Positions 29,842 through 46,180 of a stretch of DNA of 64,000 nucleotides are shown one piece after another (position 1 is the first letter of the stretch; every line of letters begins with the position of its first letter). The position numbers and the translations under genes are program-made. The DNA comes from Polytrichum commune (lineage: Eukaryota; Streptophyta; Polytrichopsida; Polytrichales; Polytrichaceae). The stretch is from positions 39,957,081 through 40,021,080 of the forward strand of contig OX485809.1 of NCBI GenBank assembly GCA_950295325.1. The letters run 5' to 3'. Under the pieces are notes generated by a model, which saw only the letters and a list, made by a program, of their open reading frames with translations, did not search any database and was not told the origin of the DNA.

Positions 29842-29842
<1 letters not shown>

Positions 29843-30436
29843 GAGAGCTGGCTTTTCAAAACTTTTACAAAGTTTGAACTTCCTCTTTTCAGAGGCCAAA
29901 TCCTTCAACTTCTTCATTATTGCAATACAAGGGTGGGTGGGTGGGAATTTCCACAAGACTCTTTCTATTTGTTTTGCATCTTCTTATTTGGTAACACAAT
30001 AACATTTGCATAATAGAGTTGTTTGCAATCATGCCTAGCTATGTGTTGTACAACATTGACATTGTGTGTTATAACCTCCTTGCTTTGCAAGAATATGTAC
30101 CTTACTTAGGGTTTATGCTATCAAATGATATCCAACAATAAATGTTTGATTTTGACTGCCCCATACCTTGGAAGTTTAATCACCTATCTTCTTGCTTCAC
30201 CTCAAAGCACATATAGCTAATCCACCACATGTATGGAGTCCTTACAATGGAAATGTTTCTAGTATCTTCAACCAATAGATATACATAAAATGTCATAATC
30301 ACAATACATCATTGTATTGAAAGTGTGAAGGGCATGGCCTCACCCCTACCCATGCAACCAACCAACAAACATTTGAGGATTAGTTACATACATGAGGTAA
30401 ATAACAGCAGGACCCAATTGTCATCCATGTCGCACA

Positions 30437-30468
30437 CACTATAAGAAACCCGTGTTTTTTGTGATGTT
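30437..30468 (+). repeat. CACTA left terminal inverted repeat
   Basis: Thirty-two bases starting CACTATAAGAAACCC and ending GTGATGTT, identical to the reverse complement of 43,580-43,611. Transposase cleavage occurs at its outer edge in this superfamily. Confidence 0.97.
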
Positions 30469-31846
30469 TTCAAAAAACGTAGACGTTTCGTTGGACATCA
30501 ACATTGTGGTCGAAGAGATGTCGGAATGAACGGGACGTTGTAAAAAACGTGGAGATGTTAGTTGGCAAACGTCGGCATGTTTGCTTACAAACATGTGGAT
30601 AACAACTACCAAACACGGGTATGTTAGAAAGGAACGCGTTAATGTCTGCGGAGACGTTAGCGTGTAGTGAGACATTACGCAGGACATGAAGGGAGACGTT
30701 TAAGTGCCACGTCGGCAAGGGGTTTTGGGGTTGACTATGGGGAAGTATTCGAAATTTATTGGGACCTCAGTTTAAGGGCTGCCCGGCAGTAAGAAAATCA
30801 GGTGGCTGGGCAGGTTTTCAAAATCCGTTAAAAAAATTAAAAATTAAAAAATCATTGTCTGGTTGCCGTCGGTTTCAATATTTTTAAATTATAAAAATTT
30901 CCATATTTTTATATTTTTATATTTTGATTTAAATAAATTTATCCACAATTTTGTGAAATATTTCAACATAAGCAATTTCCACGAATTTTGTTATATTTAA
31001 TAGAAGGGGAAATTTTAGGCTGACTTGGAATCCGGATTACGTTGTCGGGTAGAGAGGGTTCCGCCTTGGGAAAGCACTGGGCTTCTGGCTGCAACTAGAT
31101 TTTATCGGACCCGTCGAATCTTCTGGTCTTCAATCGAGTCTTCTGGTCTTCTAATCTTCAATTTCTTCAATTTCTTCTAATCTTCAACCTCTTTCCCGTC
31201 GACCTATCCTGTTGTGGCTCTATATGGGTAAAGGGTAAGGGTAGTGTGATAAGAAACCACGGGCTTCGGACGGGTAAAACGGGACATCAGAACACGAGCT
31301 GACGTCCGAAAGATTGGCTCCTAAACTTTCAAACCCACGGTGACCAACAATCGCGCCTCACCAGTGGGAACGACAGAAAACAACCTTGTGGGTGATCAAT
31401 CCCACTTCGTTGTCACAAAAAACCGGCTTGGAATCACACACACAAGAAAAAGACAACGTGCCACAAGCAACCACACATTCGAGTCTTGAAACCTTCAATT
31501 CTTCAATTTGTCCGTCTTCTATGGTCGGTCGAAGTCTCAGCTCTTCTTTTAAGAACCAACAGACTTCCCTCCACTCAAACAAGCACAAATCTTGATTGCT
31601 AACTTCCAAAACAACAAGTGAGATCTCTCATGAATTACAAATTCCTCGTATTTTATTTCATATTCTTCTCAAAAACAACTCATACCGTGAGCTTCGAATC
31701 CACTTCTCTCCCTCAACAACTTCTCTCCCACAATAATCACATAACATCTTTCCTTCACCACCTCTCACTATCAATGCGAGAGACAAAGTTCTCTCTTATC
31801 CTCATCACATGGCTTCTAATCACCCATTGGTCCAAAGTAACTCAAG

Positions 31847-32035
31847 ATAACTAAAAGACAAAAATAAACTATGAGTAAATAAAAAGGTAATCTATTTCTA
31901 TCATTTGGTAAAGGTAACTAAGAGTAACTATGAGTAAACATAAAGGTAAGCAACTTCTATCCACTTCTATCCTTAGGTAATGATAACTAAAATAAACTAT
32001 GAGTATATAAAAAAGTAATCTACTTCTATTCTTTA
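31847..32035. repeat. About 70-bp tandem repeat, three diverged copies
   Basis: The phrases GATAACTAAAA, AACTATGAGTAAA, AAAGGTAA and CTACTTCTATYC recur three times in the same order. It is a minor internal minisatellite of the CACTA element. Confidence 0.7.
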
Positions 32036-32073
32036 TTATTTTTCTCCAAGACCAAGAATCACAATGCAATATT

Positions 32074-32106
32074 AAATACGTACACATCTATATAGTGTAC
32101 GTATTT
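32074..32106. repeat. Perfect 12-bp inverted repeat
   Basis: AAATACGTACAC (32,074-32,085) and GTGTACGTATTT (32,095-32,106) flank a 9-base loop. The position, just upstream of a GACGTC-like cluster and about 650 bases beyond the transposase stop, could suit a terminator-like structure or a protein-binding site, but that is inference. Confidence 0.7.
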
Positions 32107-32758
32107 ACATCACGACAACGTGGAAATTGCACTAGGATTGTGCAATTACAGGTCTTTTATTGCGTGGCAAGCAAAATTCCATGTCAGCAAAGTTGGGGGC
32201 TCGCACGGTGTCAGGGCCAACGTCAGATGCAACATTGGCAGTGGCAACGGGTGCATACCAATTCCATGTCCCAATGAATGTTCTATTCGATATCCATCCA
32301 GACGTTTGTAACGACGACGATTATAACTGGAGATGCTAGAAGTCGTCAGGCACTATGACTTGAAAAACATCCAAACCAACATTCACATAGGAGATGGTCA
32401 CGGTTTCCTGGAACGTCTACCATCTCATTCGTGGTGCCCATGATAGAACTTGTGGGATATGGTTGACGTTGTCCAACAAAACGTCCGCACTAACAATCTG
32501 ACGTTTTCTAGCAACGCATGTCAATGTTGCCCAACAAGACATTGGGAACGCTATTGACGATGTTCATGCCGACGTGCATCATAGCATCTCCATAAACATG
32601 TTGATTTCGGGTGTTGTTGTAGTAGGGGCATCCATAAAACACACAGTCCATAGTGAAGCACGCTGAACATTCAAAAATGTGTTCATTACGACGTCCAATC
32701 TAAGTAATTTACATTATCATCAACAAGGTTGCATGTCCCGGCATAGAACACCCATTTC

Positions 32759-35700
32759 TCATTCCTCTTCATGAGTGTCCGCTGTTGTTGTGTTTGTTGC
32801 TGCTGTAACGTACTTGCCGCCAGCGGCGGCAGGTCTTCTGAGCGGTTCAGTTTCTTGTATTGTTGGTTGTAGCCCCCCGAAGTCCTCGTCGTTCCCCACT
32901 GCAATCACGGCGGCGGCGGGCTGTGGAAGATGTATTGCTTGACGTCTTCCCCTGACGTCAGTGCGGAGCACAATCTTCCATCCGCGTCTTGTTGAATCGT
33001 CTGCTAGGAATACTTGTTGGCAATGCAAGGGAAATGCAAATGAATCGGAGTGCACCCTACTGTCCATGTGGTTGAAGTTTGCCAATGTGAAGCCGTATCG
33101 GTCGCGCTCAATGTTGGGAAATCGCGCATCGCGTGTTGGCTTAACCCATTCGCACAACAATATTGTGGTGCAGTGATTTCGGTAATCAAGCTCTAGTATT
33201 TCTTCGATGAAGCCTACATGTTCAGCGGTTCTCTCAATGGGCCTCCCATTGCGAATCCCCCAACGAAGCTGCTGTGTGAAGGCGGCTACCACACATGAGT
33301 CCCTAGTAACAAGGCCGCCTTCAGAACTCCGAACACGCAGGTGCATTCCAAAAGCGTACACTTGTCGGTGTGATGTTGCGTACCGCTCGGGCGGGCATGA
33401 GTACTGTATGACGTCTGCGTCCAACTGCTCGCCTGCATGTTCGGCGTGTTGCACACGCTCCTTTAGCCAGTCTACAAAGGGAGGGATGTCACTTAGTTCG
33501 GGGGGGTATGTCACAGGTCGGCCTGGGCGATGACGCCGTAAATGTCGCCGAAATGCCTCCCGCTCTTCCCACCTGCGACCCTTTGCATCAATGTATTCCT
33601 TGCGCATTGAGCGTGTATTCAGTGTTACATATGTGCTCCTACATGTGGACGCAAATAATACTGCACATGGTGCTGTGGATTCTGTGCGCCGAACTTCTGT
33701 TGCAACATTGCAATTTATGTTGTCAATGACGTTTGCTGTGACATCTGCTATGGCATGTACTACTTGTATGAAAATGTTTATGCATTCCGCAGGATGTTAT
33801 GGTAAACGTCCACAATGACATTACTATGGGGGTAGTAGAGCTCACTCTCGCCACGGTTCCAGGCACGGTGCGTTGTCGATGACAAATGCATGGGCGTAGG
33901 CCCGCACCTCGTCGGACAATCTGCGCATTGTGTGTTCGTTTCGTCGCAATATCTCATCGTTCATCGTTCATCGTTGCATCTTCATTGGGATCCCATACAC
34001 GGTGAGTTGTTGCCCTGTAATGTTTCATGTATTCTGTGCAGAAGCCAAGCGTGTCCGATTGGCGATACCCTTCTGCGATGCTCCCCTCAAGGTGTGCATA
34101 GGCCCTAACGTAATCTTTAAGCGTCTTCATGTATCTCTCAATCGGATACATCCACCTACAATGGACAGGCCCGCAAATGAACAACTGCTCCACAAGATGC
34201 ACTGGAAGATGTGCCATGATATTCAAGAACGTCGGCGGAAACTCCTTCTCCATCACACATGTTGCCATTATCACATCGCGCATGACATCCTCCTGGGCGT
34301 CTGCCCGGACCTCTTTCTCACAAATTCGTTGAAACACCCGGCACATTTTGATGATTGCCAAACGCACTTCTTCATCTAGGAGATTTCGAACGGCCACCGG
34401 GAGTATCTGCAAAAGCCAATATATCTGCCACATGAATCATGTCATCTTGTTAGGGAGAACATGCAAAGACAGAATAAGTGTGCATTTCATAGCTTGGGGA
34501 TTGTGGCATCCGTTTTTTTCCATGTTGCACGTCGTCCATGTTTCTTCAAATTGTTGAACGTTAGGCCGGATATGCATGATGACATGTGTGCAATGTTGTT
34601 GGGCACATACGTGGCGAAGTCTTCATGACATGAAAAACATCTATAAGGGCATGGAAGATGTCAGCAATGACATCAGAGTTGTCTCCACTGGCATCTATAC
34701 TTACAAACCTACATGTACAAGGAACGTTAGAATTTATTACTTGCTGCATTAGGACGTGATAGTCATGGGATTTCATGTACTGCAACTTCCCATCTTGTAG
34801 TCGCTTATGAATGGCCCCTACGTAGTTTGTTGGAGTGCGTATACTTGACACAATGTGCACAAATTCCCTCCTCTCGTTTGGCTTCAGTATGTAAGGGGCA
34901 TGCGGCATGTAATATTCGTCACCCTGCCGTTGTGGTGGTTGCAACCAAATCTCCTGCCGTATGTTCAAGTCCTGCACGTCTTGACGGCTCCCCGGGCTAT
35001 CGTTCATACCGAATAGAGTTTTCAATATGTTCTCGCATAAATTCTTCTCGCAATGCATCACATCCAAAACGTGTCGGATCTTCAGATGCTGCGGAAAGTG
35101 CAAGGATAGAGGGTTACCGAGAGCATCCTTTTGTCTTGGGAATGCCATACTATCACTACATGAAAGTCATAATGTCCCTGACATCCAATCAGACGCGGGC
35201 ATAAACATCCCAGTGCAATGGAGACATCCAAGAATACATGTGAAACGTCTCCACTGTTTGTTTAATGTATCCTAATTTTGTGCCAAGGTGGACCAACTAT
35301 TAAGCTGCAAGGTATCAACGCAAAACCTGCCAATACGGAAGTTCAAAAAAAGCGCTTAGCCGCTTGACGCCCGTGATGTGAACATGGTCGTTTTTTGCGC
35401 CTTTCGTGCCACCTAGATCAAGGTATGATTGCCGCCAAGGGGCGTATTTGATGACGTCCAATCCTGTGACTGCATGCGGTCTTGTCCTAGACTCGCGTTG
35501 GCCATTAAACCTAGTGTTACGTCGATATGGATGGTGACGAGCTAGATATCTGCGTATTCCACCAAACACAATCTTGGAACCTTTGGTGCTCCGGTCAAGA
35601 CGCAAGTCACCTGTCTTTGCCATGCGAGCTTCCGTGTCTGGGCCGCAACAGGGACAACCTTTATATCCCTTACAGCAGAGGCCGGAGATGAGCCCGTACG

Positions 35701-37105
35701 CGGGAAAATCGGAGATGGTCCACATCAACAATGCCCTCATGTTGAAACGTCGAGACCCTCTAGGTTGGGAGAAATCGAGTGTTGGTACGCCTTGCCACAG
35801 TTGCTTCAACTCATCCAACAAAGGCCGTAGATACACATCTATGTTTCCATCGGATGGTGACCGCTTGCCCGAGATCAAAATGCATAGTGAAATGAAGAAC
35901 TTCTTAGTGACAAACCAAGGCTCCAAGTTGTATATCAGAATCAACACAGGCCACGTCGACCAATTTGTATTGCTCAACTTGAAGGGATTCACACCATCCA
36001 GCGCCAATGCCAGCCGCATGTTTCTACTCTCCTTGCCAGAGTTGTCGAAAGCGACGTCGCTGTCGATGTGCTTCCAAGCGGGACTGTCAACAACCAATCG
36101 CATGATGCCGTCCTCACTGACATGCTTTGTGTATCCCATCAACATGCCGCCAATCTCTGGTGACCGCCACATACGTTTCAGCCTTGGTATTAGTGGAAAA
36201 TGTCGAATAACCTTGCTGGGGACATTGTTTGTGCCCTCCATCCAACGTGACTTTGAACATTTGGGGCACACATTTGATTCTGCATGTTCACCGTCATAGA
36301 GCACACATCCATCTGGACATGCATGGATGTTGTTGTAGTTCATGCCCAAATTTCGGATGGTCTTCGCCGCTACGTAGTGACTACGTGGTAGTTTATTGCC
36401 CTCAGGGAGCAAGTGTTCAGACAAATACTGCAACAGTTCCGAGCTGAAGTTGTTGCTGACACCAAAGACATGACACATGTTCATTAGCACAATTGTGGCG
36501 GAGATAACGCTGGTCTTCGAGCCACTGTACAACGGAGTTGTGGACTGCTGGTACAGGTTCTCCAGGCCCTGCAGAGTGTCGTTCTCAACGTCGTCCTCAA
36601 TGTCGGGTTCACTCGCGAATTCCCTGTGCAACGCGTCCCCTCGGTCAAGAGCCTCCATCACCTGTCTCTGCACATCATGATACTGGTCGAGTGGCGTGTC
36701 GGCGTTGCTGAATGGATCCTCCCTTTGGACATCAGCTGTGTTGTCGTCGACATTGATGTTGAACATGCCATCTGGGTTGGCGTCGACTACATCATCATCA
36801 AACGGCATGTCCTCAACCCAAATACCGCGAGGAGGGTATCCTTCAAGGGGGTCGCCTCCTATGACGGACTTTGTCAAGAAAGGGTCTCTACCAACCGATG
36901 TGTGATGCTCTCTGATCGCGACGATCGATTTGCGTATGCCTCCGTGACAGTTTACGCACGGGCATGGGTAGGCCTGTATGTTCCGCTGTGTAGCAACCCG
37001 GAGCTCTATTTGCAGGATGAGATCGCCAAGGGAAATATGTCGCAGTGTACGTCCGTCATCAGTGAATCGGATTCGAGCAGCGCGAGATCGTAAATCCGGA
37101 TCCAT
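32759..37105 (-). CDS. CACTA transposase (TNPD/Tnp2-like), four exons, frame broken in exon 3
   Basis: Catalytic protein that cuts and joins the element ends in the nucleus. Exons: 37,105-35,327; 35,088-34,741; 34,406-33,825; 33,660-32,759, total about 1,200 codons, the usual size. Introns 1 and 2 are phase 0 with clean GT/AG ends (CAG/GTTTTG...TTCCGCAG and CAA/GTAATA...TTTTGCAG). Landmarks in order: CPCVNCHGG near residue 45; a CPDGC...CPKC finger near 262; LALALDGVNPF near 365; PLLDELKQLW near 430; TISDFPAYGLISG near 465; then HLKIRHVLDVMHCEKN right after the first junction, SHDYHVLMQQ at the end of exon 2, a full DUF4218 domain in exon 3 (ILPVAVRN through FPPTFLNIMAHLPVHLVEQL), and a DUF4216-like end in exon 4 (YGFTLANFNHM through QVFLADDSTRRGWKIVL). 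Exon 3 loses frame at a triple CATCGTT at 33,955-33,975, where one unit too many gives a stop. A second one-base slip near 33,850 is likely. The third intron (33,661-33,824) is less certain. Confidence 0.9.
33955..33975 (-). other. Triple 7-bp repeat that breaks the transposase frame
   Basis: CATCGTT occurs three times in a row on the plus strand. Because 7 is not a multiple of 3, one unit more or less switches frame. With two units the frame would continue into residues resembling the helix that follows DUF4218 in relatives; with three, a stop follows at 33,954. Confidence 0.7.
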
Positions 37106-38330
37106 GGCCGAAGCCTACAGGGGACGTCCGTTATGTTCCCCAAATGAGCTGCCACAAACATATTGTGCAGTACTACGTTAGACTTTACTGTAACCAGGCT
37201 GAATGCAGGGGCTATGCTAGAACCTCGTCAGCGAGCGTGGATGCAACATATACAATAAGTGTCAACATGGACATTCACCGAGACGTCTACAATATCACGT
37301 TTGTGTTTGTGTTGATGTCCACAATGACATCCAATATCACAAGTGTACAACATGTACAATGCCACGAAGGGCGTCTACAATGACATCCCATTCCCTGTGC
37401 AAACAGACGTTGGGTTGAACAACAGGGCAGCCACTCCCCATGTGTCCCACATTCTGTATCTGCTTGTGCTACGAGCGCCACTTCAGGAACGTGCGCACGG
37501 TGCAGACACAAATATTTTGGGGGAAGGTTGGCGGAGACCCTCACTTGCTGCATTTCATTAGCGACAGATCGCAAGGTGTCATGGCTCTAAGTGCAGAATC
37601 CATCCAGCAGGCTACGATTGTAGGAGAGAGAGAAGGAGTACCACAATTACAGACGGAAGGGTTGGGGGTGACAGAGGCAGCAGTTGATGTTTTCCACAAT
37701 TTTGTTAAGCACATCGCAGGAAATGCTCCAGAAAGAGGTACAGTGCAGGAAAACCCCCAAGAAAGAGGACCCCAACTCCGGCGGAGCAAGTGGTTTGCGG
37801 CCACTGTCGAAGCTGAAGCCCCCTGTCCGGTATTGCTGCATGCGCCCCTCCTGCAGAAGGTACAATCCGAGGCTCCGTGTCGTGTCTCCATGGGCGAGGT
37901 TTAGGGTCCGCGGTGCCCGGCGCGGTAATAGGCCCCGCATGGTACACGGCCATGGGTCCCACCTGCTCCACGGCCATGGGTTAAGCCCGCGTGGCAGTAG
38001 TACAACCCGCGCAGCCATTACTTCATGGCTGCTAGACATCCTCAATACCCCGTTCACGTCCTCACAGACGTCCAATGTGCAGCGCGGGTTGCCGCCGCCG
38101 TCCGGGATGTTGTAGCTGATCCAATCGATTGTGCCCAATCAGCAGGTTGTGCTCAGCCACATTCCTGGTGTGAGAGCCCAATTGCCATAGGAGATAGCTC
38201 GGAGAGACAGTTTACCTGTGAAGCCGTGATCGGCTGTGTGTGGATGTGCTGACTAGGGTTTGTGTGAGTGTGGACCTCTGTGCAGGTGCGGGGCGAGGCT
38301 TTTGTGCCCTGGCGTGCAGCACGGCGGAGG
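37106..38330. promoter_or_regulatory. Divergent promoter region between the two CACTA genes
   Basis: The transposase start (minus strand) and the accessory-gene start (plus strand) face away from each other across about 1.2 kb. The half next to the transposase (37,230-37,400) is packed with GACATT, GACGTC, GATGTCC, GACATCC and GGCGTC words like those of the termini. The 37,560-38,250 part is GC-rich, with open frames on both strands (for example ATG at 37,580, and minus-strand frames at 37,541-38,138), but none carries a recognised motif or a convincing continuation. One could be an unrecognised 5' exon of the accessory gene. In En/Spm the accessory protein binds terminal motifs and controls the promoter; the same logic may apply here. 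Confidence 0.5.
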
Positions 38331-41300
38331 ATGCCGCAGCGGAGCGGAACAAGGACAAAGAGGCCGCGGTCCCCACCTCGGCACCGAGTGCCGAACAGCT
38401 CGGACCGGGAGGTGGAGGAGACGGACTGTGACGAAGAGGAGGTGGGGCGCCGGACGAAGCACCGCCACGATGTGCGGTATGTGGCTTCGCTTCGCAAAGG
38501 GAAGGCTCGAGCTCGGACGCCTCCCAAGAGAAAGCGTTGGGTCGTCACCATATCCTCCGAGGAGCCCGGGGAACAATCTTTATCGCCGCAGAGAGACGAC
38601 GATGAGCTCAAACAAGATTTCAGGTGAGTTTGTCGCAGCTGGGAAGATGTGCCTCCGTGTTCATCGTTTGTGCAGGCTGGTAGTCAAGACGTTGCCCATG
38701 ACGTCCGCATGGACACTGGCTACGCCACAACATACATCTTGTTGCACTGGGAGATGTCCCCCTGGACATCCAGGCTAGAACCCCAGAACCCTTGTCCTGA
38801 ACCCTAAACCTAGGCGAGCTGCTCCACAATCCCCCCTTTTTTGGGGTGCCTTTCTCACACATGCATGTGACACTCATGCATAAATTCTTTCGTAGCTCGA
38901 GGCATCCTTGGTGTTTTTTTGATGTCTCCCGAGACATCAAGATGTCCGTTCAGATATCCTGCTCAATTGGAGCACATTTATTTTCCTCTATGTATGTGGT
39001 TTTGGCCATGCTGCAGTGCTTTCTGCAGGTAATTTTCTTCTCTTCTTTGGCAGGCAGTGTTCCACATTTGTATTTTTGTCTCAACATGATTCTGGAAATC
39101 CACATATGTGGGTGTTTTTTTTTGCTTACCCCCACTAGTCGGCTAAGTGCCCCCTTCTGATTTGCTCCTGTGCCGCCTTCTACTCTTCTGGTTTTGGTGG
39201 ACGTCGCCCGGGACATGCAGATTTATGTTCAGATATCCTGCCCAATTGGCACGCCCTTATTTTCATCTTTTGGCCATGCCCTCATGTTTTGTGCAGGTAA
39301 TCTTCTTCTATTCTATGATAGGCAGTGTTCCTCATTTGCATTCTTGTCTCTGCACGAACCTTCTCCATCCACATCTATGGGTGTTTCTTTTTGTTTTTTA
39401 TTTGGCTTACCCTCACAGACAGGCCAAGTGCACCCTTCTGATGTGCTCCTGTCTAGCCTTCTACTCTTCTCGTTTTGTCCGCATTTAATATTCTGTTCCA
39501 CTTTCATAGGCTCCCGTGAAATTTGTAATCTTGCCTTCGCACGCTTCTTGAAAGCCACATCTCACGGTGTTTAGTATTTTTATTGTCAGGTTTGGCTTAC
39601 CTGTCATTAGCAGGCTAAGTGTCCCCTTCTGTTATTGTCAACCCTACCCTTGTACAGCTCTTGTATTGTTGGACGTCTCCCGAGACAGGGAGATGTCTAT
39701 GCAGACGTCCTTCTACAGCTCTTGTATTGTGGGACGTCCCCCGAGACAGGAAGATGTCTATGCAGACGTCCTTACACAACTCTTGTATTCTGGGACGTCT
39801 CCCGAGACAGGGAGATGTCTGTGCACACGTCCTTCTACAGAGGTTGTATTGTGGGACGTCTCTCGGGACAGGGAGATGTCTGTACAGACGTCCTTTACAA
39901 CTCTTGTATTGTGGGACGTCTCCCGAGACAGGGAGATGTCTGTACAGACGTCCTCTCAGACATAAATCCCTAACAGTCGTCTCTTCCACAATATGTATGA
40001 ATGCATCTAATTTTTTCGCACTTGTCCGACTTGGCATAGCCGCGGGTATGACACTCACACAACTGAGTCAGATGGCAACGAGGGAGCTGAGTACTCTGAA
40101 TCGGACACGGAGGAGGATGAGACGATGCCTCGAAAGCGGCGCATGAAATCAAACACCCACACCGAGGACATGAAGAAGCCTGTGTTGGTGGATTCCAAGG
40201 GCATTCCGTACGGGACGATGAAGAAGGTGCTAGAGCAGGAAGTGAAGCTCTTGGCGAAGGACCTTGACCCCCGCCATAGTTGGGAAGGGCAACCAAAACA
40301 TGCCAAGGATCGGTTTTTCAAGCGGGTGTATGCAGGTATGGCCCCTCCATTGCCTCTGAGCCTCCATGTTGTTTCTGGACATCTAATGCAACGTCCAATT
40401 TAACATCTCCAGCTCATGAAATGGCATGTGTTGCGATGACAGAGTGGGAGATCAAGGGTAAAGGCAATGGGAAGAAAATTGATGAGATGTGGTTCCAAAA
40501 AATCGTTACGAAGGTCCTTATAAATCTCCGATTTCGACTGGGGCGCCTGATTGACACCAAGGCTCCTAAACCCCCGGAAGTGTCCACGGAATGTTGGAAC
40601 GATCTCGTCGTCTGGCGGGCCTCCGAGCTGTCCAAGAAGAAGTCCGCACAGATGCGTTCCATCTCTCGTCGCAGGGTGTCTAAGGCATCCCAATTGCAGG
40701 CTCTTCGGGAGGTTGTGCTTGTGAGGCTGGTACGCTCCCCTCACCGCCTTTCTCTACATGACCAGATGCATGTTTGTTCTGTCGCGGTTGACATTTGTGA
40801 TGTTTGCTTTGACATTTTCATCATCCATTGCCAACGTCTTATCTGTCACAGAGTATACGTCTTCAACGAGAGCCGTTTGAGACGGAGATAAACGAAGAGG
40901 TGGATAAGGAATACCAGAGGCTGGAAGCAGAGCGGCTCGACGAAGAGCAAGGTCCAGAGAAGAACATCGCAGATATGGCCACGAGGATGGAAGAGTTGGA
41001 GGCGAAACTGGATGCATCCAACGACCGGCTAGAGGCCAAGATTGATGCTTCCCAGTCGCGACTAGAGGCGATGTTCCAGCAACTCCTAGCTGGGAGACCA
41101 CCTATCTCTCCTGCCCCAACTGTATCACCTGCCCCCATTGTCTATCCTACCATTACTATTCCCCCTGCCCCCACTGTATCCTCGGCAGACATCGCCCCTA
41201 TGATTGGTGTCGTGTTGCCAATGCGGGTGGAAGAGCCCAGGAGTGCAGACATGAAAGATGATGTGGGAAGCGGAGATGCAACGTTGGCGCTTGGAGAAGG

Positions 41301-41997
41301 TGCATCACAATCGTTGGCGGTTGAGGTGTGCGAAGCGGACAGGGCGCAGGAACAAGAGCAACTTGCACGGGGACTGGACACCCACAGCTCTGGGCCCCAG
41401 CCAAGTTCGTCAGTGAGGCCGGAGCAGCTCGAGCAGGTATCCTGAACGTATGAATGTACATATTCAACGTAGGGGCAGTTTGTCGCTAGATGTTGCTGGA
41501 AACATGTCTTCCAACATCTCCGGTGACATGAGGATTTTTATTGACATCTCGGTTGACATCTATTTAAACAGCATGCGACAAAACACATAAACTAAGCTTC
41601 TTTGCAATTTTTTATGCAATGCTCATATATTTGTTGTTTTCGTCCGCAAAAAATGGTCTTGTGTTGCGTATTGTGCTTGGCCGATTGGAATGTCCTGGCG
41701 CATCCTGCATAGCTAGATGTTGAATTGCATGTTCAGGATGCGGTGGACACAATCGCCGACAACGTTGGTCCTCGACCTCGGCGACCTGAACAACCCGAGA
41801 AGACAATGAAAGGAGTGAAAGTGGCAGGCTTGTCGAAACCCTCGAAGGCCGAAGGACCGAAGCCCCTAGGATCCACAAAACCAGCAGGCTTGTCAAAACC
41901 CGGAAAGGGTGCTGCAAAGGTCGGGAGCTCAACAAGAGCAGAGGTTGCGAAGAAGAAATCTGCTAGCGCGCCCAATGTATTTGGCGAGTCGTCATAG
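38331..41997 (+). CDS. TNPA/Transposase_24-like CACTA accessory protein, five exons
   Basis: Likely the DNA-binding partner that recognises subterminal motifs and helps the transposase align the ends. Exons: 38,331-38,623; 40,040-40,335; 40,413-40,720 (or 40,729); 40,852-41,436; 41,737-41,997, giving about 580 residues without stops. Every junction keeps frame: phase 2 (CAG/GTGAGT...GCATAG), phase 1 (CAG/GTATGG...CTCCAG), phase 0 (...GTCACAG) and phase 0 (CAG/GTATCC...TTCAG). Exon 1 is charged with a nuclear-type PPKRKRW. Exons 2-3 carry the plant Transposase_24 pattern: DSKGIPYGTMKKVLEQEV, then HAKDRFFKRVYAG, then KVLINLRFRLGRLI, and PPEVSTECWNDLVVWR followed by a KKKSAQMRSISRRR basic segment. 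Exon 4 has a coiled coil (MEELEAKLDASNDRLEAKID) and a proline-rich stretch (ISPAPTVSPAP). Exon 5 repeats AGLSKPSKAEGPKP and AGLSKPGKGAAK. I chose ATG 38,331 because an in-frame stop lies at 38,265; an upstream leader exon is possible. Confidence 0.8.
38890..39650 (+). repeat. About 280-295-bp tandem repeat inside intron 1 of the accessory gene
   Basis: The phrases GTTCAGATATCCTGC (38,951 and 39,230), GCAGGTAATTTTCTTC or GCAGGTAATCTTCTTC, GGCAGTGTTCC, CCCTTCTGAT.TGCTCCTGT and CCTTCTACTCTTCT recur in the same order, giving two good units and a partial third. The units carry the same GACGTC/CGAGACATC core that is amplified in the 61-bp array downstream. The short plus-strand open frames here (39,147-39,574) are repeat by-products. 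Confidence 0.75.
39654..39957 (+). repeat. 61-bp minisatellite, five units, in intron 1 of the accessory gene
   Basis: Units start at 39,654, 39,715, 39,776, 39,837 and 39,897, each beginning ACARCTCTTGTATT (unit 4 ACAGAGGTTGTATT). Each contains GGACGTCTCCCGAGACAGGG, AGATGTCT and CAGACGTCC. The core is quasi-palindromic: GTCTC faces GAGAC, and GACGTC or GATGTC words sit at both sides. Open frames on both strands across this array are artefacts of the repeat. Confidence 0.95.
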
Positions 41998-43579
41998 TGG
42001 AATCACATATAGTTTTCCTTGACACTGATAGATCTTCATTGTCGGCAACGGTTGCTTGCAAGTATAGGTTCGGATTTTTGAAACACCTTCGACATGCTTT
42101 GCTGGCACGCACCGGAAACGAGACTGTGAACGGCGGTCTTCAAATGTACGCATGCACAAACAATGAAATTGTTCTTCGGTAACTATAAGACCCGAAGACT
42201 ATTTTTTTGCTTTACTGTAATTTCTCATGTCTCTATCAATGTCTGTGCATTTTCGGGATCATTCTCAAGCGCTTTGAGCGACCACCATTGCAACCGGCAT
42301 ATACGGAGCAATAGACAATACAGTAGACAGCCATTCTGCACCGCTTGTTGCGTGTGTTGTCGTCCAATACATTTGCCCGCAACGTCGGCGGCGTTTTTTC
42401 ACATGCCCACTCAAACGCGGGTATGGTCACAATTACTTATTGAAGGCTGTCGGAGACATTCATACAGACATCCAGCATAACACCACTGACATCTAATTCA
42501 ACATCGTGAACATCTACTTAGACATCAGAGATAATGGAGTCTCTTGCCTTGCATAGTGACGACCACATGCCCCTGAAATTTCGTGGATGTCCCAATTGGC
42601 ATCTCTCACCACGTGACGAATACTTTGAATAATGTTTCACGCAACATCACAGATATTTGTTCAGATTTTTTGACATGGCTCTGGTAATGCTCACTGAGCT
42701 CAATGGATGCTCTAAGGGACACCTTCCATAACGTGATGGACAACCTATTGGATGTCAAGAAGGACGCCACAAAAAATAACTCGTGCACAATCCATGCCCA
42801 GTAAGAGAAACGAACCCCAAAGGTGTGCATTTTTTGGAACATGCCCGACGCACTCTTGAACAAAAAGAATGTCAACAAAAATGCACCCACATGTCTCATG
42901 GCCTGTCCGTGACGACGTGCATTAATTCGCCACGACATCTTCAATGTCTCTAATAACGCACATGATGATAGCGTGAAGACACACATTAGTCACATTAAAT
43001 GAATGTCGCGATGTCCGCACAAAGCATACCATAATATATGCTTTCAATAATGACATCAGGTGTGCTTGCGATAACATCAAATTCTACATACAAAGTGTCA
43101 AAACATGCATCCTAGCAGAGACCACTAAACAATAGATAGTGTCTGCCTAAACACGGTTGTGTTGCTCGGGACATCCAAATGAACACCCTTTTAAACCCTA
43201 AACCGCCCAAACATTTGCTGACATGGCATGCCAAGTCATCGCATTGTCATAATCCACGTCAGATGCCACCGTTGCCATGTCATATTTTGGCAGGACCATG
43301 TCATCTTCCACATCACCAACGGGCCGGATGAAAATCATTTCCATGTGGCATTGCCCGTTGAAAAGGGCGCTGATGTGCCCCCCCCCCCCCCCCGTGGCAT
43401 CCACATGGCACCACTTCTAAGCACCCAAACACATGTTTCATAACGCATGTTAAGGTAAACATTGTGCATGTTGAGTTCAATTTTTGGCATGTTTTGGCAT
43501 GTTTTGGTTGATCCGATTTTAGGTGATGTTTTCATAAACATCATCCATGTTTTTTTAGACATTTTTCCGCATTTTTTCG
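41998..43579. promoter_or_regulatory. CACTA right subterminal region
   Basis: Non-coding. Dense GACATC/GACATT/AACATC words occur at 42,450-42,530 (five within about 80 bases), with further ones at 42,590-43,080 (GATGTC, GACATC, GCGATGTCC). The last 400 bases have repeated ACATGGCA/CATGTCAT words and a C16 tract at 43,378-43,393. This parallels the left subterminal region, as expected for binding sites near both ends. Confidence 0.6.
43378..43393. repeat. Poly-C(16) tract near the CACTA right end
   Basis: Sixteen consecutive C, about 220 bases inside the right terminus. Confidence 0.97.
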
Positions 43580-43611
43580 AACATCACAAAAAACACGGGT
43601 TTCTTATAGTG
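43580..43611 (-). repeat. CACTA right terminal inverted repeat
   Basis: Exact reverse complement of 30,437-30,468, ending GGGTTTCTTATAGTG and followed by the ACA duplication. Confidence 0.97.
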
Positions 43612-46180
43612 ACACATTTAGTTCATTGCAAATGCATCATAGTATTTCAAAATACAACAATCGTTGTAAAACTACATATGGGTGTTCAAACATGTTCCTT
43701 GGCCATGATTGGGTCACTCCGAGTAGAATTCTCCCCTTGGTGATGAGTCCTCGTTTCTCTTACTTTTAGCATGTATCTACTACCCAGTGAGTATACACAA
43801 AGCTCGCTACACCTCTCACTTGCATGAATGGTAAAAAAAATGTTTTTTAGGGTCACGGGCTTATATTGGAGTTCTTACCTATGGTAAATTTTCGTAAACC
43901 CTAATTTGACCATGGATTAGAGACATGGGTCATGTCTGTAAGTATGGTTATTTTGCTTTATTCATCTACATCCTTGTTACATCCATTTCATGGTAAGTAT
44001 GATTTCTTTCCATGTATGTAGACTTATTATCATCCGAGCCTAGAATCGTCTATTTATAAAGAGGACCATTGCTAAGTAGATTAATGTAAGAGTTTAAAAT
44101 CTAATTTTTTAGTGGCATGGCATTAATCAAGAAATAGAGATAGCTGACTTTTCAAAACTTGTACAAAGTTTGAACTTCCTCTTTTCAGAAGCCAAATCCT
44201 TCAATTTCTTCTTCTTTGCAATACAAGGGTGGGTGGGTGGGAATGTCCACAAGACTCTTTGTACCTCTTTTGCATCTTTCTATTTGGAATCACAATAACA
44301 TTTTGCATGATAGAGCTTAATATTTGCCATCATGCCTAATTGGGTGTGTTGTACAACATAGACATCTTGTCTCATAATCTAATTTGTTTTGCAAGAAAAT
44401 GTACCTTCTTAAGAATTTATGTTGTCACATGGCTTCCTACAACAAATGCTTGATTGTGCCTACCCCATACCTTGTAGTTTGAACATCTATCTCCCTGTTT
44501 CACTTCAAAGTACACATACTTAATCCACCACATGTATGGAGTACTTACAAGGGAAATGTTCCTAGTAACTTCAACCAATGGATATGCATAGAATGTCATA
44601 ATCACAATACATCATTGTATTGAAAGTGTGAAGGGCATGCCTCACATGTGCCCATGCAACCAACCAACAAACAATTGAGGATTAGTTACGTACACGAGCT
44701 AAATAACAACATGGCTCAGTTGTTATCCATGTTGCACACACTTAATCCATTTCAAATGCATCATAGTATTTCAAAATATAACACTCGTTGTAAAACTACA
44801 TATGGGTGTTCAAACATGTTCCTTGGCCATGATTGGGTCACTCCAAGTAGAATACTCCTCTTGGTGATGAGCCCTAGTTTCTCTTACTCTTAGCACGCAT
44901 TTATTACCCTAATGTGTATATACAAAGCTCACTGCACCTCTCACTTGCATGAATGATAAAAAAAAAATTGTTTTTCTAAGGGTTAAGGGTTTATATTGGA
45001 GTTCTTATCTATGGTAAGTTCTCGTAAACCCTATTTTTATCATGGATTAGAGACGTGGTTCACATTTGTTACTATGGTTATTGTTCTCTATTCGTCTACA
45101 TCCTTGTTACATCCAATTCATGGTAAGTATAATTTATTTCCATGTATGTAGATTTAGAATAACCTAAGCCTATAGTCCTCGACTTATAAAGAGGACCATT
45201 GCTATGTAGATTAATGTAAGAGTTTAACATCAAAATTTGTGTCCTAAGAGAGAGAGCTGGGCATTTCTTGAGTGAAGCTATGCTTACTTTCAAGCATATT
45301 TCTTTCTACAACATCCTCTTGTCAAGAGGCCATTCCATTCTTTCATATATCTATGTATCTATCAAAACCTGGGAGGGTTGGTGGGATCTTCCCTCCATGT
45401 TAGTACATTGCACATTTTAACTTTCACACTTTGGAGCATTTTGAAAATACTTGCAATATGTATAACCTTGGAGTATTCACATCACTAAGGTTTGCAAGTG
45501 TATATCCTTTCCAAACCAATTTGCAACTTAAGTCCATCATATGCAAAGTCAAGTTTAATATGACAACCTAATATCCTTTCAAAGTCACTAACAAGGTAGC
45601 ATTGTAAAACATGCCTTCTAACTTGTGGAATGTTTACTTCCTCTATACACACTATTTCGTAATAAGATTGTATACAAAACCTAATAAGGCCGTCAAATTT
45701 GTGAAGGGTCTGCCTCACTTGTGCCCATGCCACCAACCAAATCCACGGAGAGGGTTAGTAACGTACACGAGGTGAATAACAACAAAACCCAATTGTTATC
45801 TATTTCACACGAATACATGAGGCATAACCATACATTTTGTATTCCAAAATACTCACTATCCTCAATGAGTATTCTACCTGTTCTTTGGCCATTTGAAAAT
45901 CCACAGCTTGTAGTAAGTCACTTTCACTTCCAACAAGCTCCCACCTTGCTTACCCTAATCACAAAAATTACCTAAGGTAAAATGCTTCCGCGGCTTACTC
46001 TTGGAAAGGAAGTACTCAAGTGGGCTTCCTCTTATTATATGATTAGGTAATCATTTAGGACCGTAGATTTGCAACCTCATATCTATGGTCGTTTATCCTT
46101 AGTTGGCCATTGCCTAGTACTAAGGTAAAACCTTTTAGGGTACATATTACTAAGTGGTGCCAGTTGGTTAAGATCTGACC

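Follow-up and report, generated by a model that had tools for sequence, protein, structure and literature searches.

Paired short words in the introns, ends, and center of a Polytrichum commune CACTA element as candidate binding sites for its accessory protein

Introduction

Maize En/Spm is a CACTA element that encodes a transposase and a second protein and carries arrays of short words near its ends; the VANDAL elements, unlike CACTA, are Mutator-like. Here, we analyzed a 64,000-nucleotide stretch of Polytrichum commune DNA (the window, with coordinates counted from its position 1) that contains a CACTA element of 13,175 bp at positions 30437 to 43611. This element resembles En/Spm in its two proteins and in its word arrays near the ends. 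Known TnpA sites are subterminal, but the words of the window element fill its introns and its center as well.

The closest described layout is that of the Arabidopsis VANDALs. In the available parts of the published accounts, to which our statements about all the systems below are limited, VANC21 localizes to the introns, intergenic DNA, and terminal noncoding DNA of VANDAL21 through its motif (PMC5735166). VANDAL21/VANC21 and VANDAL6/VANC6 are like the window element in having an element-specific short motif in introns, intergenic DNA, and terminal DNA that is lacking in the coding probes tested and in carrying this motif in tandem repeats; related VANDAL families have different motifs, as may also hold for CACTA families of this genome (PMC5735166, PMC10398659). 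The motifs themselves differ from those of the window element (YAGTATTAY or AGTTGTCC/AGTTGTAC), and paired dyads, which we found in the window element, are not described for VANDAL motifs in these parts of the sources (PMC5735166, PMC10398659). In addition, binding and demethylation are proven for VANDALs (PMC5735166, PMC10398659), whereas for the window element they are predictions from sequence.

Among CACTA elements, the En-1 repeat of maize En/Spm is 12 bp long (PMC2613891), and activation by Spm TnpA correlates with demethylation (PMC10398659); the accessory protein of the window element differs in lacking a PF03004 match. The soybean Tgmt* and TgmR* elements are similar to the window element in their subterminal paired repeats able to form palindromes, and the families of this one species differ in motif, which is thought to parallel different DNA-binding proteins; unlike in the window element, the repeats are described in the borders, with no intronic sites described in the text available (PMC2613891, PMC4219821). 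Likewise, the Jozin CACTA elements of Chenopodium have a 12-bp subterminal motif in 19 to 23 copies that varies between species; unlike here, only the 5′ and 3′ ends were covered by the count (PMC8978399). Family-specific subterminal motifs in CACTA elements and intronic motif arrays in VANDALs are therefore already known. For intronic motif arrays in CACTA elements, we found no report in searches of the open-access literature, which is not proof that none exists.

Word density in introns and other parts of the element

The original prediction for this locus, made from the letters alone, held that the words GACGTC, GACATC, GATGTC, GACGTT, and AACGTC occur in both subterminal regions, in the center between the two divergent genes, and in all seven introns. 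We located words in each of these places, including at least one in every intron, and compared their numbers with expectations from dinucleotide shuffles. The introns contained 35 words versus 2.82 expected (13.3 per kb), upholding the claimed intronic density, and 21 versus 2.08 when a minisatellite in one of them was excluded. The other noncoding parts of the element held 34 words versus 6.3 expected (6 to 7 per kb), distributed over the left region (positions 30437 to 32758; 16 versus 2.97), the right region (41998 to 43611; 10 versus 2.09), and the center (37106 to 38330; 8 versus 1.25). The exons taken together were close to expectation (2.2 per kb; 12 versus 8.06; P = 0.114), with a slight excess in the transposase exons alone (11 versus 5.82; P = 0.038) and 1 versus 2.25 in the accessory exons. 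The 10-kb flanks fell below expectation (0.3 to 0.4 per kb; 4 versus 7.52 and 3 versus 6.92, total 7 versus 14.4). Chance or base composition was ruled out as the cause by the dinucleotide shuffles together with these unenriched flanks. The minisatellite was ruled out as the sole cause, since the signal persisted with it removed. When hexamers were counted without preselection, GACATC/GATGTC topped the noncoding DNA of the element (34 versus 4.8 expected), and none of the predicted words appeared in the list of the 14 top exon hexamers.

By intron, the transposase gene (introns 1 to 3 on the minus strand at 35089 to 35326, 34407 to 34740, and 33697 to 33845) held 3, 2, and 3 words, and the accessory gene (introns 1 to 4 on the plus strand at 38624 to 40039, 40336 to 40412, 40730 to 40851, and 41437 to 41736) held 22, 2, 1, and 2. 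Five of the seven introns were significant singly (P < 0.05); the others were transposase intron 2 (P = 0.074) and accessory intron 3 (P = 0.239). The minisatellite lies in accessory intron 1 (39648 to 39965, plus strand) and has a unit of ∼61 bp with up to three words each (GACGTC, GATGTC, and GACGTC at +0, +20, and +32).

Twelve-base-pair pairing of the words

The original prediction was right about the words but overlooked their pairing. With the set widened by AACATC and GATGTT and spacing measured from start to start, 18 word pairs in the element lay 12 bp apart, and no other distance up to 60 bp had more than 8 (14 versus no more than 6 with the minisatellite masked). This was also the top spacing in all seven related copies that we measured (A to G; copy C was tied with 33 bp at 9 pairs each). 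Pooling the masked window copy with copies E and G gave 43 pairs at 12 bp, compared to an average of 3.3 for the other spacings between 7 and 80 bp, the runners-up being 21 and 65 bp with 12 pairs each. Outside the element, the window contained no 12-bp pair among 72 words. The degenerate 18-bp form of the pair, RAYRTY-N6-RAYRTY, was found 16 times in introns versus 0.08 expected (12 versus 0.04 outside the minisatellite) and 13 times versus 0.19 in the ends and center, compared to 1 versus 0.13 in exons and 3 versus 1.68 in the 50.8 kb outside the element.

Six of the seven introns contained this dyad. Transposase intron 2 has a perfect GATGTC-N6-GACATC at 34657, and transposase intron 3 has 12-bp pairs at 33728, 33793, and 33805. 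Accessory intron 1 has eight 12-bp pairs. The 77-bp accessory intron 2, for which several words had been claimed despite its length, indeed carries three half-sites (GACATC, AACGTC, and AACATC) in exact 12-bp steps. Accessory intron 3, not significant alone for the predicted words, has an AACGTC near its acceptor and a weak pair, GATGTT-N6-GACATT; accessory intron 4 has GACATC-N6-GACATC at 41543 and degenerate words. In the center, pairs lie at 37270 and 37314. Several of the 12-bp pairs were direct, not inverted.

Related copies and conservation

A search of the genome with the left end of the element returned 27 matches, from which eight other copies were taken. The seven with both genes (A to G) were measured, and copy H, with most exons not found in its stretch, was excluded from intron counts. 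Exon ends in the copies were placed with tblastn, and the limits of several introns, which lack a GT start or an AG end, are wrong by a few bases; accessory intron 2 of copy C was not delimitable, and accessory introns 1 and 2 of copy F, with exon 2 split, are missing from the counts. Sister copy A was 94 to 100% identical to the window copy in protein over the exons, and B to G were ∼81 to 95% identical in transposase exons 1 to 3 (main matches), 61 to 72% in exon 4, and ∼79 to 90% in accessory exons 2 and 3.

Motif-free introns in relatives had been named as the outcome that would speak against the prediction. We found at least one word in 45 of the 46 introns of these copies and a significant excess in 33 of 46 (P < 0.05), the copies not being independent of one another. 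The sole empty intron, accessory intron 4 of copy D, is badly delimited in the model (no GT start); transposase intron 3 of copy G, a 7.35-kb stretch, had no excess (4 versus 5.0).

We then compared word columns with the remainder of the alignments. In five introns, with the window copy aligned to B, D, E, F, and G, word columns were 83 to 90% identical versus 55 to 70% elsewhere. Composition-matched control classes that avoid the motif had medians of 57 to 65%, and the observed identity was attained by 3 of 38, 0 of 36, 1 of 37, and 1 of 47 of these classes in four pairs; among control classes without motif avoidance, it was attained by 2 of 28, 1 of 25, 3 of 27, and 0 of 32. Transposase intron 1 aligned at only 49 to 55% with B to G, yet words were present in all copies. 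This intron has turned over while being word-rich on both sides of the comparison.

A single C-to-T change in GACGTC has two possible products, GACATC and GATGTC; the double product GATATC was not clearly enriched (3 versus 1.4). CpG decay of one ancestral word fits the set GACATC/GATGTC/GACGTC but leaves spacing and conservation unexplained.

As one of two options, the original prediction had suggested a subterminal origin of the introns. A left-terminus profile matched a piece starting at the terminal inverted repeat (TIR) in transposase intron 1 of B to F (E = 6e-21 to 1.3e-23), and a right-terminus piece lay next to it in the same intron (E = 7e-5 to 2.4e-3). Transposase intron 1 of B to F (L039 to L050) therefore holds an inverted, nested miniature derivative of its own family with a decayed TIR. 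At E values up to 0.1, the same search gave no terminus-like match in the introns of the window element, A, or G. The suggested origin was thus borne out for one intron of B to F but not detectably for the window introns. Because of the nested derivative in B to F, self-insertion is a real route of words into introns; because no such derivative was detected in the window element, A, or G, it is not the general cause.

These data bear on the idea that the intronic words are a functionless by-product of nested deletion derivatives of the element itself and of minisatellite growth. The miniature insertion in B to F, the 61-bp minisatellite, and the lack of word conservation in transposase intron 1 are all consistent with such an origin. 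Nevertheless, we consider it unlikely, given that no terminus homology was detected in any window intron, that word conservation was above background in five introns, that the excess survived removal of the minisatellite, and that a similar pattern with another word recurred in four other CACTA loci, described below.

The orientation of the words in introns was also compared across copies. On the sense strand, GACATC/GATGTC counts were 6/12 in the window copy, 4/6 in B, 5/2 in D, 6/7 in E, and 6/10 in G, indicating no consistent strand bias. A signal at the RNA level, such as splicing enhancers or pre-mRNA hairpins, would find a place in the inverted dyads, since GATGTC-N6-GACATC, for example, could make a 6-bp RNA stem. 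However, the absence of a strand preference, the direct orientation of several pairs, the density of words in the ends and center, and the use of a different word in other loci make this explanation highly improbable.

Other CACTA loci with a different word

The introns of four other CACTA loci (X, L059, L060, and L056) contained TAGTCA or ATGACT words, 25 versus 2.6 expected over nine introns, compared to 6 versus 6.3 in their exons. One of these, element X (C1:3401676-3418142), has a transposase 46 to 50% identical to that of the window element; its flanks, TCT and TCC, show that the target duplication is not intact. TAGTCA/TGACTA was the top word of X (26 versus 2.63 expected in the outer 3 kb) and was also the top word there alone. 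The four tested introns of X, approximate for the accessory gene, held 3, 2, 2, and 0 words versus 0.18, 0.35, 0.13, and 0.23 expected (P = 0.004, 0.062, 0.014, and 1), and its exons held 2 versus 1.83. In X, the dyad TGACTD-N4-HAGTCA was found nine times versus 0.03 in shuffles, with four in the tested introns by position. L059, which is related to X (55 to 69% amino acid identity) and has the same word, contained 4 and 6 words in its introns versus 0.35 and 0.29. L060 contained 2 and 2 versus 0.33 and 0.41 (P = 0.050 and 0.070), and the tested L056 intron contained 4 versus 0.34. The words for L059 and L060 were taken from the whole 4.1-kb piece including introns, so the tests of these two loci were not blind; that for L056, sixth among its hexamers, was chosen by analogy with L060.

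The words of the window element were found 0 to 1 times in each comparator intron, and TAGTCA and ATGACT were found once each in the window introns (1.25 and 1.97 expected). Neither word kind was in clear excess in the introns of the other kind. The word of the window family differs from those of the four comparators, two of which (L059 and X) are related. The comparators represent one other core, TGACT, with variants and not four codes, because TAGTCA and ATGACT overlap in ATGACTA.

Genome-wide distribution of dyads

Across the genome, GATGTC-N6-GACATC was found 125 times versus 12 for the reversed control pattern, and TGACTA-N4-TAGTCA was found 735 times versus 19. Accessory exon 3 had 80 genome matches, nine of them at an identity of at least 82% and 60 of the remainder at 39 to 49%. 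These 60 loci, many with the same 115-codon open frame, form a second, larger related family.

We compared dyad positions with those of 69 of the 80 accessory homologues (the 11 lowest scoring were dropped), using the first 50 of the 125 GATGTC-N6-GACATC places and all 67 GATGTC-N6-GACGTC places. Among the first 50 GATGTC-N6-GACATC places, 28 had an accessory homologue no more than 10 kb away (random, 0.17), with 18 near other families; in the stretch that these places cover, 21 of 30 homologues had the dyad within 10 kb. Similarly, 41 of the 67 GATGTC-N6-GACGTC places were within 10 kb of a homologue (random, 0.25), 27 near other families, and touched 19 of the 69 homologues. At loci of other families, two GATGTC-N6-GACGTC dyads lay downstream of the exon 3 match, at distances of 31 and 236 bp, the place expected of intron 3 by distance only. 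A GATGTC-N6-GACATC dyad, selected by eye, lay 214 bp downstream of the transposase domain of another family, the place expected of intron 1 by distance; it is the single case of this kind calculated for the dyad of the window element. For the X-type dyad, with the first 50 of the 735 TGACTA-N4-TAGTCA places listed, five lay 287 to 465 bp downstream of three of the 11 transposase domains examined, again by distance only.

Arrays could in principle recruit host activators of the bZIP or WRKY type. In favor of this idea, GACGTC resembles a bZIP core and TTGACT a WRKY W-box. The clustering of dyads around accessory homologues and the strict 12-bp pairing speak against it, as does the predominance of GACATC/GATGTC over GACGTC (38 versus 21 in the whole element), since GACATC and GATGTC are, to our knowledge, not classical bZIP sites. 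We regard recruitment of host factors as very unlikely.

A candidate binding array and its rivals

We propose that each word is one half of a paired site, RAYRTY-N6-RAYRTY, for the accessory protein of the element and that such sites are kept in all its noncoding DNA for the element to stay active, a reading for which we judge the chances to be about even. The accessory protein, a putative DNA binder, would recognize paired half-sites 12 bp apart in the ends, center, and introns. Binding along the whole body would mark the element as self and keep or restore an active, less methylated state, and the terminal sites would additionally serve synapsis for transposition. The array would run through the transcription units via the introns, which, having no coding constraint, could serve as its seats. 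The original prediction had put forward that the element's own DNA-binding protein may coat it; this gains indirect support from the pairing, the conservation of word columns, the strand neutrality, the use of another word elsewhere, and the genome-wide clustering of dyads around accessory homologues.

By analogy with VANC21 and Spm TnpA, we infer accessory-protein binding combined with anti-silencing, and the best reading of the intronic part of the array is that it would be TnpA-like in element and VANC-like in layout. As in the VANC type, the motif was enriched in introns, intergenic DNA, and terminal DNA but not in exons. Tandem amplification of the motif was found in one intron, as the 61-bp minisatellite, with dispersed pairs elsewhere. 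The element is a CACTA element and not a VANDAL, and its accessory protein had no Pfam match. Published descriptions treat the subterminal motifs of CACTA elements as cis-determinants of transposition located at the termini. Were these sites also to fill the introns as a paired code, action of the accessory protein on the entire element would be expected. If true, demethylation by En/Spm TnpA and anti-silencing by VANDAL VANC would be linked as convergent solutions, and the site recognized by the accessory protein of a CACTA element could be predicted from sequence alone. It is possible, although doubtful, that this extends to CACTA elements at large as a self-recognition system that arose independently of VANDALs, with the accessory protein of each family reading its own paired code (half-site word and spacing) in introns, center, and ends and with introns kept as its only seats inside transcription units. 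The core word common to the comparators and the 31-bp spacing peak of X make this extension less probable.

The main rival is autorepression, in which the accessory protein on intronic and central sites would act as a roadblock or repressor of both genes without anti-silencing. Both transcription units and the center between the divergent genes do contain sites, and for soybean TgmR*, a transposase on the subterminal repeats has been proposed to block splicing of a host gene's intron (PMC4219821). However, few sites would suffice for autorepression, and the array spans all noncoding DNA to the far ends. We consider autorepression rather unlikely, although sequence alone does not separate it from anti-silencing.

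Several observations weigh against paired binding and anti-silencing by the accessory protein. With respect to pairing, transposase intron 1 of the window element (3 words, 4 in the degenerate set) has no 12-bp pair, its words being 19 to 24 bp apart (24, 19, and 21). In X, counting TAGTCA and CAGTCA, spacing peaked at 31 bp (9 pairs; 10 and 41 bp had 6 each), and N4 dyads numbered one in L059 and none in L060. Genome-wide, GATGTC-N6-GACGTC showed only a small excess (67 versus 48 for the control; 36/31 versus 24/24), and the clustering of dyads with accessory genes could mean just membership of the same elements. With respect to enrichment and conservation, only five of the nine comparator introns were significant (P < 0.05), transposase intron 2 of B to F had one word each and no significant excess, and in both control versions, three of the four pairs had control classes as conserved as the words. 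In transposase intron 1, words were kept in 0 of 8 to 9 aligned cases with B, D, or E and in 2 of 3 with G. With respect to the protein, the accessory product had no Pfam match above the cutoff, and a single-sequence AlphaFold2 model of its exon 3 was poor (predicted local distance difference test score [pLDDT] of 49.6) and was not used. Finally, the CpG observed/expected ratio was 0.58 in introns (0.49 when the CpG words were left out), 0.86 in other noncoding DNA of the element, 0.93 in exons, and 0.47 in flanks. The introns are nearer the flanks than the exons, suggesting that they have been unprotected from methylation over time; this CpG loss is compatible with anti-silencing during brief active phases but does not demonstrate it.

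Element boundaries and gene models

The element begins with the TIR CACTATAAGAAACCCG..., and its terminal inverted arms are 40 bp long and 93% complementary, with the target site duplication (TSD) ACA flanking both ends. Assignment to the CACTA (En/Spm) superfamily follows from a TIR starting with CACTA together with a 3-bp TSD, from a Transposase_21 (tnp2) domain (PF02992; E = 2.5e-62), and from the subterminal repeats of short words. A second protein with Transposase_24 (PF03004) is an optional feature of the superfamily, and the accessory protein had no match to it at E values up to 10. The surrounding host sequence is a tandem duplication with units of ∼1.1 kb (compared stretches, 29842 to 30436 and 44138 to 44738). 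The second host unit (44441 to 45044) is an uninterrupted empty site with a single ACA, 87% identical to the joined flanks. Within the left noncoding region, a block at 31050 to 32100 has only two words and its own 49- to 69-bp direct repeats and is possibly a nested insertion.

The two divergent genes were modeled by splice phase. All seven introns have a GT start and an AG end, and phases fit except at the frameshifted transposase exon 3. The transposase gene (32759 to 37105, minus strand) has exons at 37105-35327, 35088-34741, 34406-33846, and 33696-32759. In addition to PF02992, its product matched PF13960 (E = 7.3e-33) and, just under the cutoff, PF13952 (E = 1e-6). Exon 3, which carries the frameshift, is 561 nt long in the window copy and 554 nt in A, B, C, E, and F. 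A 7-bp unit is repeated three times in tandem in this exon at 33954 to 33974, where the window frame meets a stop.

The accessory gene (38331 to 41997, plus strand) has exons at 38331-38623, 40040-40335, 40413-40729, 40852-41436, and 41737-41997, which splice in consistent phase into an open frame of 583 amino acids; in sister copy A, accessory exon 3 is interrupted by a stop. Between the accessory proteins of the window element and X, BLASTP was not significant, and a single-pair profile comparison gave an E value of 0.0084 but a probability of 4.7%. Accessory exons 1, 4, and 5 of copy F (L047 to L050) were 80 to 88% identical to the window copy; those of B to E and G were 53 to 57% identical in exon 1 and 56 to 67% in exon 5, with exon 4 at 51 to 58% in B, E, and G and partly at 79 to 86% in C and D. 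Together with exons 2 and 3, common to all at ∼79 to 90%, this mosaic in copy F hints at exchange between lineages. Lastly, 18-bp repeats at 41105 to 41194 in accessory exon 4 encode a proline-rich stretch.

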